DNA of 39,838 bases from Candidatus Nitrosopumilus sp. (lineage in GTDB: Archaea > Thermoproteota > Nitrososphaeria > Nitrososphaerales > Nitrosopumilaceae), in the NCBI GenBank assembly GCA_028279625.1, contig JANQNM010000029.1:1-39838 (forward strand). The letters are read 5' to 3'. Positions 4,825 to 11,946 of the stretch are shown here, one piece after another. The notes under the pieces are model-generated. The model saw nothing but the letters and a program-made list of their open reading frames with translations, was not told the origin of the DNA and searched no databases. Each line of letters begins with the position of its first letter. Within the stretch, counting starts at the first letter, position 1. Both the position numbers and the translations under genes were made by a program.

Positions 4825-5955
4825 TTAGAAGAATTTTTGGTAGGCTTTCTCAACTATTTGAAGGGATTCCTGTATTTCTGTGTTTGATAGCCAAGCAGTG
4901 ACTGATACCCGTAGTCTTGCTTTGTTTTTTGGAACAGTTGGATATCTTATTGGTTGAGCAAAAATGCCATTTTTGAATAAAAATTCGCCTAAATTCATAG
5001 CATCTTTTTCTTTTCCAATGATGATTGGTATGATTTGAGAATCTGATCTTATCTCAAATCCTATCTCTTTGAGTCCTTTTGTTAATTGATTGGTGTTTTT
5101 GAGAAGTTTTTTTCTTTGTTTTTCACGATTTGTATCAAATCGTTTTAGAGAATATTCAACTAAAAATGATGGAAGAGCTGATGTGTAGATAAATGATTTT
5201 GATTTGTTGATGCACAAATCTATCACGTTGTTTTTTGATGCTACATATCCTCCAAATGATCCTAGGCCTTTACTCAAACTACTGATATACAAATCAATTT
5301 TTTTTGCAACTCTAAAATGATCAGGTGTTCCTTTTCCATCTCTTCCAAAAACAAAATCTCCATGTGCGTCATCTACAATAGTTATTGCATTTTTCTTTTC
5401 GGCAATTTCTGTAATTTCTTTTAATGGTGAAAAATCCCCATCCATACTAAATACCCCTTCCGTAATTATGAATTTGTTTTTTGCTTTTTGTTTTAGTTTG
5501 TTTTTCAAATCTTCTGTATCGTTATGTTTGTAGATGGAGACTTTAGCATCAGATAGTTTACAGGACTCTATAATGCTTGCATGGTTTAATTGATCACTTA
5601 GAATCAAATCTCCTTTTTTTGCAATAGCAGAGATTGCTCCAAGATTTGCCATGTATCCTGTAGGATAAACCAAACTACTCTGTTGTGATTTGTGTTTAGC
5701 AAGAGATTCTTCTAATTTTTTGTAACTTTGATCATTTCCTGAAACTAGTCTTGAACTTGATTGGAGTTGTTTGATTTGTAATCTTGTTGTAGGGATTCCC
5801 AAATAATCATTTGAGCACAAATTTAGTAGTTTTTTACCATTTATTGTAATGTGGGAGCCTTGTGATTTGCCGTAACGCAATTTTCTATACAGTTCGTTTT
5901 GCTTGATCTTTTTTAGTTCTGAATCGATAAAATCTAGTTTATGCTTTGAGTTCAA
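4825..5955 (-). CDS. bioF: 8-amino-7-oxononanoate synthase (biotin biosynthesis)
   Basis: The 376-aa protein is a fold-type I PLP enzyme of the alpha-oxoamine synthase family, which joins pimeloyl thioester and L-alanine to give KAPA. Visible family marks are NLCSNDYLGI near the N-terminus, the SDQLNHASII segment, the PLP Asp/His in TIVDDAHGDFVFGRDGKGT, and the Schiff-base lysine in YISSLSKGLGSFGGY. Length fits BioF. The first codon is TTG at 5955; no ATG lies nearby upstream. bioA and bioD in this window also appear to use TTG. It stands apart from the other bio genes, separated from bioB by about 2.9 kb. Upstream lies one of the dispersed stem-loop elements (6017-6056). 2-Amino-3-ketobutyrate ligase is the closest alternative, but the bio-gene context favours BioF. 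Confidence 0.85.
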   Translation of the reverse strand: MNSKHKLDFIDSELKKIKQNELYRKLRYGKSQGSHITINGKKLLNLCSNDYLGIPTTRLQIKQLQSSSRLVSGNDQSYKKLEESLAKHKSQQSSLVYPTGYMANLGAISAIAKKGDLILSDQLNHASIIESCKLSDAKVSIYKHNDTEDLKNKLKQKAKNKFIITEGVFSMDGDFSPLKEITEIAEKKNAITIVDDAHGDFVFGRDGKGTPDHFRVAKKIDLYISSLSKGLGSFGGYVASKNNVIDLCINKSKSFIYTSALPSFLVEYSLKRFDTNREKQRKKLLKNTNQLTKGLKEIGFEIRSDSQIIPIIIGKEKDAMNLGEFLFKNGIFAQPIRYPTVPKNKARLRVSVTAWLSNTEIQESLQIVEKAYQKFF

Positions 5956-6016
5956 CTATTGTTTATTGAAATTAGGCATGCGTAAAATCGTTTCTTAAAA
6001 TGTTGATTCTTCAGAT

Positions 6017-6056
6017 CTGGTTTGCACGCCAATATCCGTTTACCGAGTATTGGCTT
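6017..6056. repeat. Dispersed stem-loop element, copy 1
   Basis: The arms GCCAATA (6028-6034) and TATTGGC (6048-6054) can pair around a 13-base loop. It is preceded by CTGGTTTGCACGCCAA, which recurs exactly at 22474-22489; GTTTACCGAGTATTGGC also recurs exactly in that copy. It lies 45 bases beyond the stop of the CbiX-like gene and about 60 bases upstream of bioF. Two more divergent copies are at 8590 and 32211. Its role is unknown; an RNA element, protein-binding site or small dispersed repeat are all possible. Confidence 0.6.
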
Positions 6057-6100
6057 ATTCAAAAGATAGTTTTGAAAAATAAAAAGAAAAAAGAGGAAAA

Positions 6101-7303
6101 TTACTCACAAGAGTAATCTCTATCCCAATATGGAGTAACTGCAGACTCGGTTGGTTTGTCCTTTTTGATGAATTTGACAGTCTCTTTTACAGTTTGTTCT
6201 GCCCAAGCAACCATTTCATCTTCTCCAACTTCATCAGTTCCTGGAGTTACAAGATAGTCTATTCCTTCAGCATCCAACATATCAGTCACCAAATCAATAC
6301 CCATTTGGCTTCCTGTTGCATGTACAAGTACAACACGGTCTACATCTCCAGATAGCATTGATTCAATTTCATCTAATCCGTCAGAAAGAGCACCAGGATA
6401 CAAATGATCCCAATCTTCTCTAACAACTAAATCCATAGAACCTGCAAATCCTAATTCATTTTCAACATGAGAAGCTGCACATGATAGTTCTTCTTCTTGA
6501 GAATCGTTGTGACCTTCATTTCTTGCACCATGACCTACAAGGATAACAACCTCATCCTCAGGAGAAACAGTTACAGCTTCTGCTTGTTTGACAAATATGT
6601 CTCTGAGTATTGGATGGTCTGGTCTTGCAGGTTCTGCAAAGATGATTTTTGAATCACTGAAGGTTTCAGCTCGAACATGAATGTGACCCATGTACCAACA
6701 TACATCACCATATGCATCCAACATAGAGTCAATATCAACATGCATGTGCTCAAACATTGTTGTGAGCATTCCACCTGGCCAAGGAGTTGCCATGATAGCT
6801 TCAGTAACAATAGCAGGTTGCATATTCATAGGTGGTCCAAAGCTTGATGGCCATGGTGGACATGTATATCCATCAACGCCACCAAAATAACCACGAGTCA
6901 AATCATGAATTACTGTAGAGTCTGGTCCAAACATATCAGTGTACAAAAAGATGGAATAGTCTTTATCACTCTTGTCTAGACTCATCAATCCATTGTTCCA
7001 CCAATAAGGCATGTGTGTGATTTTCTCACCTGTAATCTTCATTTTTTGTTCCAAATGATTTTCTATTGCAGTAATCCTGTCATTTGCGCCCATGTGAGCC
7101 AAAGGATTAGTTGGAATACCATGAGTATACACTAACACACCCGTGTTCTTTTTGATTCGTTTGTCTTTACCGTACTTTTTCTTGTCGTCTCTGTCATCGT
7201 CATCATCATCTTTATCTGCAAATGCAACTGTCCCAATTGAAACTGAACCAACTAGAACTGCAGCTATTGCTAAAAATGATAACCAATGTATCGTTTTAGT
7301 CAT
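6101..7303 (-). CDS. Secreted CbiX/SirB-like chelatase-fold protein
   Basis: With the start at ATG 7303 the protein has about 400 residues. It has an N-terminal signal peptide (TKTIHWLSFLAIAAVLVGSVSIGTVAFA), then a run of aspartates and lysines, then two domains. Each domain opens with a strand and a His motif: LVYTHGIP in the first, and VVILVGHGARNEGHN in the second, which is very like the N-terminus of CbiX/SirB class II chelatases. Late in the second domain, VVLVHATGSQMGID and YLVTPGTDEVG repeat the strand-turn style of that fold. Cytoplasmic members insert cobalt, nickel or iron into sirohydrochlorin. Export makes that role doubtful, and metal binding outside the cell is the more cautious guess. 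An ATG at 7330 also exists, but a TATA-like CTTTTAAT lies about 30 bases before 7303 and would overlap the longer frame. Confidence 0.65.
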   Translation of the reverse strand: MTKTIHWLSFLAIAAVLVGSVSIGTVAFADKDDDDDDRDDKKKYGKDKRIKKNTGVLVYTHGIPTNPLAHMGANDRITAIENHLEQKMKITGEKITHMPYWWNNGLMSLDKSDKDYSIFLYTDMFGPDSTVIHDLTRGYFGGVDGYTCPPWPSSFGPPMNMQPAIVTEAIMATPWPGGMLTTMFEHMHVDIDSMLDAYGDVCWYMGHIHVRAETFSDSKIIFAEPARPDHPILRDIFVKQAEAVTVSPEDEVVILVGHGARNEGHNDSQEEELSCAASHVENELGFAGSMDLVVREDWDHLYPGALSDGLDEIESMLSGDVDRVVLVHATGSQMGIDLVTDMLDAEGIDYLVTPGTDEVGEDEMVAWAEQTVKETVKFIKKDKPTESAVTPYWDRDYSCE

Positions 7304-7428
7304 TAGGATAAAGCAGACTGGTACAAACATTAAAAGCTAAATTTGATTTTCTTTTTTTATTTCGAATCAGTATTCTAGAAAACTATTTTGTAATTTTATT
7401 CTAAATAATTGAATCACAAGATTAAAAA

Positions 7429-7453
7429 TTTGATATTGTATTACAATATCAAA
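7429..7453. promoter_or_regulatory. 25-base perfect palindrome
   Basis: TTTGATATTGTA and TACAATATCAAA form perfect 12-base arms around one central T. The site lies 24 bases beyond the stop of the zinc mini-protein gene (7478) and about 130 bases upstream of the CbiX-like start. It could be an operator for a dimeric regulator or a hairpin at the transcript end. There is no adjacent T-run strong enough to decide. Confidence 0.5.
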
Positions 7454-7477
7454 CAACAATAATATCTCTAAAAAAAT

Positions 7478-7684
7478 TTAGTATCTCTTTTTTTCAGACA
7501 ATCTTGCCTTCCATTGTCTATTTCTAGGAGTAGATCTTAGTCGACATCCACAACATGGACAAAAAAATCCCTCCCATTGAATGAATACTTCACATATTTG
7601 ACATCTTTTTTGTCCTGAACCATATCTGCTTTTTCCTATTGGTCTTGAAGCTTTGTATTGCATACAAAGATCTTTACACGACAC
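7478..7684 (-). CDS. 68-aa zinc-binding mini-protein (CPCCG family)
   Basis: This small basic protein begins MSCKDLC, has a central KRCQIC pair and a second CPCCGCRLR knuckle, and ends in a strongly basic tail (PRNRQWKARLSEKKRY). It is a clear relative of the 54-aa protein at 701-865: both keep CxxxC, then RYxxGxKRCxxC, about 11 residues, and CPCCGxxLR. Two independent members in one window support the reality of both. The cysteine spacing should hold zinc as a treble-clef or ribbon-like fold. The function is unknown; DNA, RNA or ribosome contact would fit the charge. It is on the strand opposite to ferritin, with about 160 bases between the two start codons. Confidence 0.7.
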   Translation of the reverse strand: MSCKDLCMQYKASRPIGKSRYGSGQKRCQICEVFIQWEGFFCPCCGCRLRSTPRNRQWKARLSEKKRY

Positions 7685-7703
7685 GAAAGAATTCTTCTAG
7701 AGG

Positions 7704-7800
7704 TTTGTTATTAAACAAATCAACAAAACTAGATTTTGTTTTTAATTCATAATACAACAAAAAAGAATCATCACATTATTTCATTTTGTTCTAACAAAAT
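7704..7800. promoter_or_regulatory. Cluster of three TTTGTT/AACAAA dyads before ferritin
   Basis: Three inverted repeats made from the same half-site lie between the divergent zinc mini-protein and ferritin genes. They are TTTGTT-ATTA-AACAAA (7704-7719), AACAAAA-CTAGA-TTTTGTT (7722-7740) and ATTTTGTT-CT-AACAAAAT (7783-7800). The last is an almost uninterrupted 18-base palindrome, 46 bases before the ferritin ATG. Repeated dyads in front of an iron-storage gene suggest operators for a dimeric metal-dependent regulator, but AT-rich sequence can produce such patterns by chance. Confidence 0.4.
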
Positions 7801-7846
7801 AGAATTTATGATTCACTTAAAACTACAACAAAAAATCATGTAAGAT

Positions 7847-8347
7847 ATGAAGATCTCAGAAAATGTACTTCAATTATTAAATGAGCAAATTGCAATAGAA
7901 GCCAATGCCTCAAGTTACTATCTTTCAGTTGCATCTTGGTGTAAGGTCAACGGATATGATGGAGCTGCATGCTTTTTTCGCGCCCATTCAGCTGAAGAAA
8001 GAGATCATATGTTGAAGATAATTCAATATCTTAATGAATTAAGGATACATGCAACTATTCCTCAAATTGAACAACCTCCTCAAGAGATGGAATCTCTAGA
8101 ACAGGCTTTCAAAACAGCCTTACAGAATGAACAAAACGTAACCAAGTCAATTGATAAAATTATCAATGCAGCTCAAGAAGAAAACGATCACAGAACAGAT
8201 ACTTTTCTAGAATGGTTTGTAAATGAACAAATTGAGGAAGAAGACCTGTTTGAAACAGTCTTGCAAAAGTTTGATGTTATAGGAAGAGACAAACTTGCGC
8301 TTCACGAAATTGACAAAATACTAGACAAACTAAAGACTACAACCTGA
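7847..8347 (+). CDS. ftn: Ferritin (FtnA-type iron storage protein)
   Basis: The 166-aa protein is a non-haem ferritin: four long helices and a short fifth. It takes up ferrous iron, oxidises it at a di-iron ferroxidase centre and stores it in a 24-subunit shell. The expected ligands are visible: Glu18 (EQIAIEANASSYYL), Glu51 and His54 (SAEERDH), Glu95 (NEQNV) and Glu127-Gln128 with Glu130 (FVNEQIEEED). Length matches bacterial-type FtnA. There is no haem-binding Met pattern that would point to bacterioferritin. Several short dyads upstream (7704-7800) may mediate iron-responsive control. It appears to be a single-gene unit. Confidence 0.92.
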   Translation: MKISENVLQLLNEQIAIEANASSYYLSVASWCKVNGYDGAACFFRAHSAEERDHMLKIIQYLNELRIHATIPQIEQPPQEMESLEQAFKTALQNEQNVTKSIDKIINAAQEENDHRTDTFLEWFVNEQIEEEDLFETVLQKFDVIGRDKLALHEIDKILDKLKTTT

Positions 8348-8371
8348 TGAAAATATTCAGTGTTGATTGGC

Positions 8372-8473
8372 TTATTTGTTATGGCATTTAGGACATGGAA
8401 GGTCGCTTAGTACATATGCGGCATAAACATGACCACATTTTTTGCATAGATGGATACAGGAACTAATCCTCAT
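8372..8473 (-). CDS. 33-aa zinc-ribbon mini-protein
   Basis: From ATG 8473 to TAA 8372 a 33-residue frame reads MRISSCIHLCKKCGHVYAAYVLSDLPCPKCHNK. It contains CKKCGH and CPKC, 17 residues apart, the spacing of a rubredoxin-like zinc ribbon, with almost nothing else. An additional Cys lies near the N-terminus. Such minimal zinc-ribbon proteins are frequent in this archaeal group. It converges with ferritin, 24 bases beyond the ferritin stop. Function is unknown. Confidence 0.55.
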   Translation of the reverse strand: MRISSCIHLCKKCGHVYAAYVLSDLPCPKCHNK

Positions 8474-8810
8474 CAAGTATTTAATTTTGAATTTTTGTAA
8501 TAAATACAACTTCTATTTTATTCTCATGTTTTAGAGTCTTAGATCAACTGCAATTGAAATCAGAAAAACTGAATCTTTTTGAACAAATCTTGGCTCACAG
8601 ACCAATAGCCGTTTTGCAAGTATTGGTTTTGGATCTATAGAGATTTGAACCCTTTTTGGATTAAAATGAGATTAAAAATAATTTGTGATATATCTAAAGG
8701 TAATTACAAAATCTGAAATCGTACAGTTTTCTAGTGATTTCGCACAAGAAAAACACCTATTTTTCAAATGAAATTGTGGCATACAGGCACGCAAAAATCA
8801 CTTTACAATG
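8474..8810. other. Non-coding stretch of about 337 bases
   Basis: The gap between the zinc-ribbon mini-gene and the end of bioB holds a dispersed stem-loop element at 8590-8630 and no open frame I can support. A sequence at about 8640-8655 reads like a tRNA T-loop on the minus strand, but no acceptor, D-arm or anticodon arm fits around it. Confidence 0.5.
8590..8630. repeat. Dispersed stem-loop element, copy 2
   Basis: The arms ACCAATA (8601-8607) and TATTGGT (8621-8627) enclose a 13-base loop with CCGTTTT, the same loop length as copy 1. It starts TTGGCTCACAGACCAA, repeated exactly at 32211-32226. Relative to copies 1 and 3 the outer stem pair is A-T instead of G-C, so pairing is kept although bases differ. 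Confidence 0.55.
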
Positions 8811-9788
8811 TTATGCTTTGAAGCCAATTTTTTCTATCATTTCTTTGTCTTTTTTGGCCTCATTTCCGCCTAGTGTGAGGTATCCTGCAGTAATAATTCC
8901 ATTAGCCCCACTCTGGAGTAGTTCTTCACCTGCATCATCTAAGATATTTTCTCTTCCGCCTGATATCTTGATGACTGATTCTGGCAATAGGAACCTGATA
9001 ACTGAAAAAATTCTTACAATCTCTGAATTTGGAAGTTCTGTTTGTAGTTCTAGCGGAGTACCTGGAATTGGAACTAGAATGTTTATTGTTACTTCTTCAG
9101 GGAATAATCTTGCCAACTCTAATGATAATTCTAGTCTTTGAGATCTTGTCTCACCTAATCCGATAATTCCGCCAGTGCACAATTCTAATCCTGCATCTCT
9201 TGCAATTCCTAATGTCTTTAGTCTGTCTTCATATGTATGAGTAGTACAAATTTCAGAAAACTTTGATTTTGCAGTTTCTAAATTATGATTGTATCTTTTT
9301 ACTTTGAGTTCTTTTAGTTTTCTTGCTTGTTCTGGTGTAAGAAAACCTAAACTACATTCTACACTGATTCCAACTTTGTTATTAATTTCAGTTATTATCT
9401 TGCAAACTTTTTCAAAATCTTTTGGTGATGGTTCTCTCCATGCAGCAACAAGACAATAAGACTCTGCACCTTCTTCTTTTGCTTTTGTTGCTTTTTCTAC
9501 AACTTCTTCAGGACTTGGTAATTGATATGTATCAATTCCTGTATCAAAGAATGCAGATTGTCCACAAAATGTACAATCTTCACTACATGCATTTTTCTTT
9601 ATGTTGTTTAATTGCTCGACATCAACTTTTTCACCATTAAAATCTCTAGTAATTTCATTAGCAGCTATTGCCAAATCTTTTAGATTCTCCTCAGGAGTAT
9701 TGAATAGTTTTTCAGCATCCTCAGTTGAAATTCCAATTCCTGAAAATACCTTTTCTTGACATTCTTTGATAAATTCCAGAGAACTCAT
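8811..9788 (-). CDS. bioB: Biotin synthase (radical SAM)
   Basis: The 325-aa protein is a radical-SAM enzyme that inserts sulfur into dethiobiotin to make biotin. The [4Fe-4S] cluster motif is C-x3-C-x2-C at Cys68, Cys72 and Cys75 (NACSEDCTFCGQSA). Further BioB marks are YCLVAAWREP, the ECSLG segment with a conserved Cys, YNHNLETA, and TGGIIGLGET. Length is normal. The ATG at 9788 is supported by a TATA-like GTTATAAAT centred about 26 bases upstream, so the transcript is probably leaderless. A BirA-type operator (9831-9859) lies directly upstream of that box, which indicates biotin-dependent control. bioA ends 73 bases upstream on the same strand. Confidence 0.95.
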   Translation of the reverse strand: MSSLEFIKECQEKVFSGIGISTEDAEKLFNTPEENLKDLAIAANEITRDFNGEKVDVEQLNNIKKNACSEDCTFCGQSAFFDTGIDTYQLPSPEEVVEKATKAKEEGAESYCLVAAWREPSPKDFEKVCKIITEINNKVGISVECSLGFLTPEQARKLKELKVKRYNHNLETAKSKFSEICTTHTYEDRLKTLGIARDAGLELCTGGIIGLGETRSQRLELSLELARLFPEEVTINILVPIPGTPLELQTELPNSEIVRIFSVIRFLLPESVIKISGGRENILDDAGEELLQSGANGIITAGYLTLGGNEAKKDKEMIEKIGFKA

Positions 9789-9804: not shown

Positions 9805-9829
9805 TTTCCATTTATAACAATAATGGAAA
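9805..9829. promoter_or_regulatory. bioB TATA box enclosed in an 8-base-arm dyad
   Basis: TTTCCATT (9805-9812) and AATGGAAA (9822-9829) are perfect inverted arms around nine bases. On the minus strand the centre contains GTTATAAAT (about 9810-9818), the probable bioB TATA box, 26 bases before the bioB ATG. A protein on this dyad would cover the TATA box. Whether it is a real operator or a chance palindrome cannot be decided from one sequence. Confidence 0.5.
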
Positions 9830-9830
9830 G

Positions 9831-9859
9831 GTTAACCTCCCATAAGGTAGGGGGTTAAC
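9831..9859. promoter_or_regulatory. BirA-type biotin operator upstream of bioB
   Basis: GTTAACC (9831-9837), exactly 15 intervening bases and GGTTAAC (9853-9859) match the known BirA binding signal, GTTAACC-N15-GGTTAAC. The site lies between the bioA stop (9862) and the bioB TATA box. The match of half-sites and spacing in the one place expected for biotin control is strong evidence for a biotin protein ligase with a DNA-binding domain elsewhere in the genome. Confidence 0.8.
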
Positions 9860-9861
9860 AG

Positions 9862-11220
9862 TCAGACTACTTGTGGTTTTGCAGCCTTGATTGTCTTTAT
9901 GGTCCTGTTTAGGAGTAATTCTAACTCTTTTTCAGATATTGCCAAGGGTGGTACGAGCATGACTATGTTCCCTAGTGTGCGTAAATAGATTCCTTGTTTT
10001 CTGCCCTCCTCGAAGAATATCTTGTTGATTGATTTTTTAGGATGAATTGGTGTCTTTTTGTCCTTATCTGTGACTAGTTCTATTCCCATAAGCATTCCTT
10101 TGTGTCTGATATCTCCGACGATATCGATTTCAGAGATTTCATCATAGAATTTCTCAAAAACTTTTGATGTTCTTTGGATTTTTTTGATGAGATGATTTTT
10201 TTGATACATTTTGAGATTTTGATCTGCAACTGCTGCTGCCAATGTATTTCCAGTATATGTGTGTCCGTGAAACAGGTGCTTCCAATCATTAAACTCTCCT
10301 AAAAATGAATCATAGATTTTTTTACTAGACAGAGTTGCAGCCATTGTTAGGTATCCTCCAGTCAACATCTTTCCATATGCAACAATATCTGGAATACTTT
10401 TCTGTTCTTCGTATTGCAACATGGAGCCTAATCTTCCAAATCCTGTTGCAATCTCATCTAAGACAAATAACACATCATATTTTTTGCATAGTTGGCTAAT
10501 CTTTTTTTGAAACCCTTTAGGATAAATGATTACTCCGCCTGCAACTTGCGCTCCACTTTCCATAATGAATGCAGCAATGTTGTTATTTTTTGATAATTTC
10601 TTTTCAATTTTCTCTAAACAATAATTTTGATAATCTGAAAATGAAAATCCTTTTGGAGTTCTGTATTTGTTTGGAACTGGAAATTGTAATGTGGTGAATA
10701 ATTGTTTTTTGAATTTTCCAAAAAATTCTGGAACATAACCTACTGACATTGCACCAAATGTATCTCCATGATATCCATTTTCAACTGTTGCAATCTTTGT
10801 CTTCTTTTTCTCTCCTATGTTTTTCCAATATTGCAATGCCATTTTGATTGCAATCTCCATAGCTGATGACCCATTATCTGAATAAAATGCTCGATGCATT
10901 CCAGGAGAAATTCTCACCAAGTTTTTTGCTAGGCTCTCTGCAGGCTCATTTGTCAGATTAAACATTGAGGAGTGTTGCAGTTTTTTGCTTTGATTTGAAA
11001 TTGTTCTAACTAATTCAGGATTAGAGTGCCCCCAAACATTGCACCACATTGATGCTACTGCATCTATCATCTTCTTTCCTTTAGAATCAGTCAGATAGAC
11101 TCCTTTGGCACTTTTTATCTTCCCAAATTCATCCCATTCTTTCATCTGAGTGTTAGGATGCCATACAAAACTGGAATTTTTCAAGGCAGTATCTGTAATC
11201 TTGATGTTCTTAATAATCAA
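9862..11220 (-). CDS. bioA: Adenosylmethionine-8-amino-7-oxononanoate aminotransferase
   Basis: The 452-aa protein is a class III PLP aminotransferase that converts KAPA to DAPA using SAM as amino donor. Diagnostic features are FVWHPNTQM at the N-terminus, the MWCNVWGHSNPEL segment, YSDNGSSAMEIAIKMA, the DEIATGFGRLGSM motif carrying the cofactor Asp, the PLP lysine in VAYGKMLTGG, and HGHTYTGN. WHP-x-TQM is characteristic of BioA as opposed to other class III enzymes. The start is TTG at 11220; no nearby ATG fits. The start codon faces divergent bioD, about 39 bases away. Downstream, bioB follows after a 73-base gap containing the BirA-type site, so bioB probably has its own regulated promoter. 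Confidence 0.93.
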   Translation of the reverse strand: MIIKNIKITDTALKNSSFVWHPNTQMKEWDEFGKIKSAKGVYLTDSKGKKMIDAVASMWCNVWGHSNPELVRTISNQSKKLQHSSMFNLTNEPAESLAKNLVRISPGMHRAFYSDNGSSAMEIAIKMALQYWKNIGEKKKTKIATVENGYHGDTFGAMSVGYVPEFFGKFKKQLFTTLQFPVPNKYRTPKGFSFSDYQNYCLEKIEKKLSKNNNIAAFIMESGAQVAGGVIIYPKGFQKKISQLCKKYDVLFVLDEIATGFGRLGSMLQYEEQKSIPDIVAYGKMLTGGYLTMAATLSSKKIYDSFLGEFNDWKHLFHGHTYTGNTLAAAVADQNLKMYQKNHLIKKIQRTSKVFEKFYDEISEIDIVGDIRHKGMLMGIELVTDKDKKTPIHPKKSINKIFFEEGRKQGIYLRTLGNIVMLVPPLAISEKELELLLNRTIKTIKAAKPQVV

Positions 11221-11259
11221 ACGATAAGATTAATCAGTCATCTATTCAGACGTCTCTTG

Positions 11260-11946
11260 TTGAAGTCACTTTTTGTTACAGGAACTGATACGGATGTTGG
11301 AAAAACCTACATCACAGCAGGGTTGGCTGTAACCTTACGAAAAATAGGTATTGATCTTGGTATCATGAAGCCTTTTGCTGCAGGAACTGCACAGAAAAAA
11401 GGCTACAAATCAGAAGACGTTGAGATTCTATCTAATGCTGCTCAAGTAAATGATCCTGAAGATTTGGTAAATCCTCAATTCTTTCCTATCCCTGCATCTC
11501 CATATACTGCATGGAAAAATCTGAAAACAAAACCAAAGATTAACCCTGTAATATCTGGTTTTAAAAAATTATCAAAACTTCATGAGATGTTATTAGTTGA
11601 AGGAATGGGTGGAATAATGACTCCTATTCTCAAAGACTATTTTGTAACTGATTTGATTAAAGAGATGAAGATTCCTGCAATTATTGTAACGCGAGCTAAA
11701 ATTGGAACTGTAAATCATACTGTTATGACTGTAAAGATGTGTGAAAAATACAAAATTCCAATCAAAGGAATAATAATTAACAATTTTGATTCAGATGGAT
11801 ACAAAACAAAAGAACTTACTCGTGATTTGAAGAACTTAACAAATGTTCCAATTTTAGGCTCAATTCCTTTTATTGAAGACATGAGTGATTCAGCTATGTA
11901 CAAAATTTTCAAGAAAAATCTCAACATAAAATTAATTTTAAAGTGA
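11260..11946 (+). CDS. bioD: Dethiobiotin synthetase
   Basis: BioD closes the ureido ring of DAPA with CO2 and ATP to form dethiobiotin. The protein begins KSLFVTGTDTDVGKTYITAG, the typical BioD P-loop (GTDTDVGKT), followed by IMKPFAAG (substrate lysine), LVEGMGGIMTPI and the Asn/Asp nucleotide segment IIINNFD. I place the start at TTG 11260 (228 aa), with TTG 11257 as an alternative. The open frame extends upstream to an ATG at 11158, but those 34 residues would overlap bioA and precede the conserved first beta strand with unrelated sequence. The symporter gene starts four bases after the stop, so the two are co-transcribed. Confidence 0.9.
   Translation: MKSLFVTGTDTDVGKTYITAGLAVTLRKIGIDLGIMKPFAAGTAQKKGYKSEDVEILSNAAQVNDPEDLVNPQFFPIPASPYTAWKNLKTKPKINPVISGFKKLSKLHEMLLVEGMGGIMTPILKDYFVTDLIKEMKIPAIIVTRAKIGTVNHTVMTVKMCEKYKIPIKGIIINNFDSDGYKTKELTRDLKNLTNVPILGSIPFIEDMSDSAMYKIFKKNLNIKLILK

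Follow-up and report, generated by a model that had tools for sequence, protein, structure and literature searches.

The stretch of DNA analysed here (the window, 39,838 nucleotides from a Nitrosopumilus-type archaeon) raises the question of which protein, if any, reads a conspicuous palindrome in front of its bioB gene, and what that protein might control. Between the stop codon of bioA (9862) and the start codon of bioB (9788), both on the minus strand, the sequence at 9831-9859 reads GTTAACC-TCCCATAAGGTAGGG-GGTTAAC, two perfect seven-base half-sites around a 15-base spacer. The palindrome begins 2 bp past the bioA stop codon and lies 43-71 bp upstream of bioB, that is, in the promoter of a biotin-synthesis gene, and it holds the same place in relatives. 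It is the sole exact match in the window, and a relaxed scan of the window gave no other good match. The features are listed in Table 1.

Table 1. Biotin genes and candidate operator elements in the window
Feature	Position	Strand	Basis or remark
bioB, biotin synthase	8811..9788	-	Pfam Radical_SAM + BATS
bioF, KAPA synthase	4825..5955	-	Aminotran_1_2; orthologues directly behind bioB in most relatives
bioA, DAPA aminotransferase; start uncertain, probably inside ORF	9862..11220	-	Aminotran_3, match from residue 34
bioD, dethiobiotin synthetase; divergent from bioA; start uncertain	11158..11946	+	AAA_26/CbiA
BirA-type operator GTTAACC-N15-GGTTAAC	9831..9859		Exact sequence; conserved in 91/131 family bioB upstream regions
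Operator half-site, bioB side	9831..9837		Column information across relatives
Operator half-site, bioA side	9853..9859		Column information across relatives
Probable bioB TATA box TTATAAAT, 13 bp from operator	9810..9817	-	Sequence; 13-bp spacing again in 39 scored g1 loci

A first-pass annotation had compared the palindrome to the BirA signal and placed it just upstream of the probable bioB TATA box. Both statements hold: the inner seven bases (a GTWAACC core) and the 14/15 spacing match the published consensus, TTGTAAACC-[N14/15]-GGTTTACAA, which was found once or twice per genome in the delta-proteobacteria surveyed (PMC545781), and TTATAAAT lies 13 bp away. A half-site primer used for B. 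subtilis contains GGTTAACAATT (PMC4016012). The bacterial half-site has nine bases (TTGTAAACC/GGTTTACAA), and its outer TT/AA differs here and is unconserved in relatives. Since the seven-base core is present and published bacterial sites also vary (PMC545781), we read the difference as a variation of the motif in this lineage. Beside the operator, a further inverted repeat, TTCCATT-N9-AATGGAA (window 9806-9828), spans the bioB TATA box; its chance expectation in the window is 0.02, and only 6 of 80 named relatives have it.

The same annotation had called for a genome-wide scan with the BirA pattern and for a check of conservation before bioB. The pattern GTWAACY-N14..16-RGTTWAC gave only two matches in the genome, one at bioB and one outside the window before rpl3, and the reversed control pattern gave one, so that a single genome match is in itself unremarkable. 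For the bioB operator chance is excluded by conservation: with at most one mismatch allowed and within 100 bp of the start, 91 of the family's 131 bioB upstream regions carry the site, compared with 1 of 2,620 shuffled regions. Scans with the spacer fixed at 15, whether exact or with one mismatch, missed most relatives, and patterns with spacers of 14-16 were used instead because many relatives use a spacer of 14. Within g1, 47 of 58 bioB regions carry the site, mostly 41-42 bp from the start codon, and 11 do not. Across relatives the half-site columns hold 1.77-1.98 bits compared with 0.31-0.61 bits for the spacer; the half-sites are kept and the spacers drift. The half-sites of g6 and g9 read GTAAACC/GGTTTAC, and two other families of the order (f2 and f3; G212 and G213) have GTAAACC-N14/15-GGTTTAC before bioB. 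Among the named GTDB loci, 59 of 80 have the site; most Nitrosarchaeum records and both Cenarchaeum records are without it, and in g14 (Nitrosarchaeum) it is missing from all 16 loci. Several other matches were set aside: two in family f8 (G216, G270) near tRNA genes rather than near bioB, a third in that family (G246) likewise not near bioB, and extra g6 matches (G064, G085) inside an unrelated open frame.

The candidate regulator is encoded elsewhere in the genome (L001:1147-2157, minus strand). The whole genome encodes a single protein of the biotin/lipoate ligase family (336 aa), with an HTH_11 domain (residues 14-66, 48.1 bits, cut-off 25) followed by BPL_LplA_LipB and BPL_C. Its residues 15-331 align over the full length to S. 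aureus BirA (6apw, E 5.2e-37) and residues 14-330 to E. coli BirA (1bia). With an N-terminal winged helix, a ligase domain and a C-terminal domain, it belongs among the group II biotin protein ligases (BPLs). The prediction of a ligase with a DNA-binding domain is thus borne out, as the only BPL of the genome carries a BirA-type N-terminal HTH_11. The combination that the annotation had named as fatal to its proposal, a lone BirA without DNA-binding domain and an unconserved site, is not what was found, HTH_11 being present. In the recognition helix, the residue after Ser-Arg is Val, Ile or Thr where position 3 of the half-site is T (S. aureus BirA has Thr), and Ala in g6 and g9, where position 3 is A, as in E. 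coli BirA. In g17 and g22, which have one half-site of each kind, this residue is Val. The pattern is only suggestive of a helix residue that tracks half-site position 3, and one event may account for the archaeal change.

The presence of the site follows the presence of the DNA-binding domain. HTH_11 scored above the cut-off in 13 sampled ligases, and 12 of these 13 genomes have a bioB or rpl3 site; where the ligase HTH is deleted or too degenerate (nine genomes, from g5, g7, g11, g15 and G081 of g2), none has one. The association (Fisher p = 2e-5 by genome, 7e-4 by genus) counts Pfam-scored, related genomes and the ligase tree needs about three label changes, so the p values are only a guide. 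The split occurs even within g2: the site is present in G060, whose HTH scores as positive, and absent from G081, whose HTH is degenerate. The sole exception is G074 (g16), with an intact HTH and no site found; the 5' end of its rpl3 is missing from the assembly. Members of g15, Cenarchaeum-like sponge symbionts (L322-L324), have a biotin ligase without DNA-binding domain, and in the two g15 neighbourhoods read, bioA and bioD were not detected beside bioBF.

Which biotin genes would such an operator control? The first-pass annotation had found no BirA-type site at bioF or in the gap between bioA and bioD, and our search of the bioA-bioD gap and the bioF upstream region for weak BirA-like sites likewise gave none. 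Its suggestion that regulation may focus on the last step of the pathway needs amending, as bioB and bioF have a common operator in most relatives, where the two genes overlap or lie almost end to end. The operator therefore heads a bioB-bioF operon there, and it would control both the first (bioF) and the last (bioB) enzymes of the ring pathway. The two genes are 2.9 kb apart in the window. This gap (5956-8810) holds a ferritin-like gene (7847-8347, plus strand) and an ORF of 409 aa without Pfam match (6101-7330, minus strand); elsewhere in the window, 2037-2687 encodes a Snf7-domain (ESCRT-III/CdvB-like) protein, probably an archaeal cell-division or membrane-remodelling gene.

Other layouts occur in relatives. 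In g19 the operator stands between divergent bioBF and bioAD, which is the E. coli layout. G046 has one operator directly after bioA at a contig end (L236:5873-5901) and another before bioBF on a different contig (L237:2058-2086), as though operator and bioBF had been duplicated or relocated together. A g17 genome (L349) carries two near-identical BirA-type sites 287 bp apart upstream of bioB (G176:C84:4545-4572 and 4832-4859).

The only other match in the genome (G000:C70:4098-4125, spacer 14) lies 48 bp before the start of rpl3, the gene for ribosomal protein L3, which in the source genome is cut off by the contig end. The element was present in all 44 loci examined of g1, g4, g13, g14 and g18, always 47-50 bp before rpl3 and in register, with 1.90 bits in the half-sites compared with 0.74 bits in the spacer; in 20 loci of other genera it was absent at that position. 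A composite rpl3 pattern has exactly one match in 52 of the 58 genus genomes with a completeness of 90% or more, and its reversed control has no match in any of them. A probable TATA box lies 15 bp from the rpl3 site (the same scoring gave 13 at bioB). In the ligase tree the genera with the rpl3 site group together as one clade (support 84/97), which holds Nitrosopumilus and Nitrosarchaeum. In g14 (Nitrosarchaeum) the bioB site is gone, the rpl3 site is kept and the BirA recognition helix is unchanged; g13, like g14, combines an intact BirA helix and an rpl3 site with no bioB site.

One near-match before rpl3 in g17 (GTTATCC-N15-GGTTAAC at -18) overlaps the TATA box and is out of register with the -48 site. 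A GGTTAACGAC-like sequence occurs about 18 bp before rpl3 in g17 (L308, L312) and other basal genera, overlapping or adjoining the TATA box; the full rpl3 palindrome may have developed from such a sequence.

Judged from sequence evidence, the bioB site is very probably an operator of the bifunctional ligase/repressor BirA (a group II BPL). As a second operator of the same kind stands before rpl3 in one clade, the same protein probably also acts on the rpl3 operon, and the whole of this explanation, a BirA operator at bioB with probable action at rpl3, is the one in which we place high confidence. With plentiful biotin and scarce apo-carboxylase, BirA would become loaded with biotinyl-5'-AMP, dimerise and bind both halves of the palindrome. 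At 13 bp upstream of the TATA box, the bound protein would lie over the region recognised by TFB and switch off bioB (bioB-bioF in most relatives). Here we infer the ligand, the dimeric binding and the repression by analogy with bacterial BirA; the site, its conservation, the HTH-bearing BirA and the lack of a site in genomes whose ligase has lost the HTH are observed in the archaea.

One alternative is that a different DNA-binding protein, for example a regulator of ribosomal genes or growth, reads GTTAACC-N14/15-GGTTAAC at both bioB and rpl3, with BirA uninvolved. The two sites do have a common half-site, common spacing and a similar distance to the TATA box, and a ribosomal operon is no known BirA target in the literature searched. 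However, the published BirA signal has this half-site and this 14/15 spacing (PMC545781), no sites were found where the BPL has lost its HTH, and the basal genera and families f2 and f3 have, as far as examined, a site only before bioB, which makes the biotin role the older one. We consider a protein other than BirA very improbable. Even less credible is that the inverted repeat serves as an RNA hairpin or a bioA 3'-end element. This idea owes its appeal to the closeness of the repeat to the bioA stop codon in the window, but the repeat persists at loci without bioA directly upstream (G117, G005, and in G046 the copy next to bioBF) and at loci with a divergent bioA (g19), it also occurs before rpl3, and it is absent in g5 and g7 despite their bioA-bioB order; moreover, both half-sites remain GTTAACC, with no covariation. 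BirA might also bind and activate rather than repress. Archaeal activators often bind upstream of the TATA box, and the Nitrosopumilus operator lies upstream of the presumed BRE/TATA at constant spacing. Between lineages, however, the distance of the operator varies (about 2 bp separate it from the TATA box in g19, and in f2 and f3 it lies about 12 bp upstream of the start codon), and we therefore favour promoter occlusion; bacterial BirA, too, is a repressor, and activation seems improbable.

More weight belongs to the possibility that the bioB site is a BirA operator and an unrelated factor with a coincident half-site occupies the one at rpl3. The rpl3 spacers are always 14 bases and AT-rich, unlike those at bioB, and the rpl3 site is found in a single clade; since this clade contains no HTH-negative genome among those sampled, the co-loss test does not apply to it. 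Against this, it is unlikely that the same seven-base half-site, at the same 14-base spacing, would arise twice, and g13 and g14 keep the BirA helix and the rpl3 site without a bioB site. An unrelated factor at rpl3 is thus unlikely, though clearly the most serious of these alternatives. The identity of the motifs together with the Nitrosarchaeum and g13 pattern leads us to lean towards binding of the rpl3 site by BirA itself.

A more tentative extension, which we regard as possible but somewhat doubtful, is that the reach of BirA in Nitrosopumilus, Nitrosarchaeum and their close relatives extends beyond biotin synthesis to control of the rpl3 operon. Slower carboxylase synthesis would then let free holo-BirA rise and tie ribosome production to the biotin/carboxylase state; in Nitrosarchaeum the biotin target would have been lost and the ribosomal target would remain. 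If this is true, ribosome output would follow the biotin/carboxylase state in cells whose carbon fixation needs a biotin enzyme. The bioB locus offers a defined candidate biotin switch, protein and operator, for a group of organisms that is among the most abundant in the ocean. Little is understood of how Archaea control the transcription of ribosomal protein genes, and the rpl3 site, if real, would connect ribosome synthesis there with a vitamin/carboxylase sensor.

BirA operators in Archaea were reportedly already proposed by Rodionov, Mironov and Gelfand in 2002 (Genome Res 12:1507), at a time when, to our knowledge, no genomes of ammonia-oxidising archaea had been sequenced. We found no description of the bioB-bioF operator of this lineage or of the rpl3 site in the literature searched, which likewise yielded no ribosomal operon as a BirA target and no conserved rpl3 operator. 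The bioABD genes of N. gargensis (PMC6138646) are functional biotin genes in a thaumarchaeon, and the relevant passages of that paper contain no operator or BirA analysis for the archaeon. Like the bacterial BirA regulon (E. coli bioO; B. subtilis bioWAFDBI, yuiG and yhfU; delta-proteobacterial bioB/bioF), the archaeal system has the GTWAACC core, the 14/15 spacer, one or two sites per genome, bioB as a target and an HTH-bearing ligase encoded elsewhere. Unlike it, the archaeal sites stand at a TATA promoter and lack a conserved outer TT/AA, and the second site precedes a ribosomal protein gene, rpl3, and not one for biotin transport or synthesis. On this comparison the bioB operator would be a further member of the known BirA regulon, and the candidate rpl3 operator would be a new extension of it.
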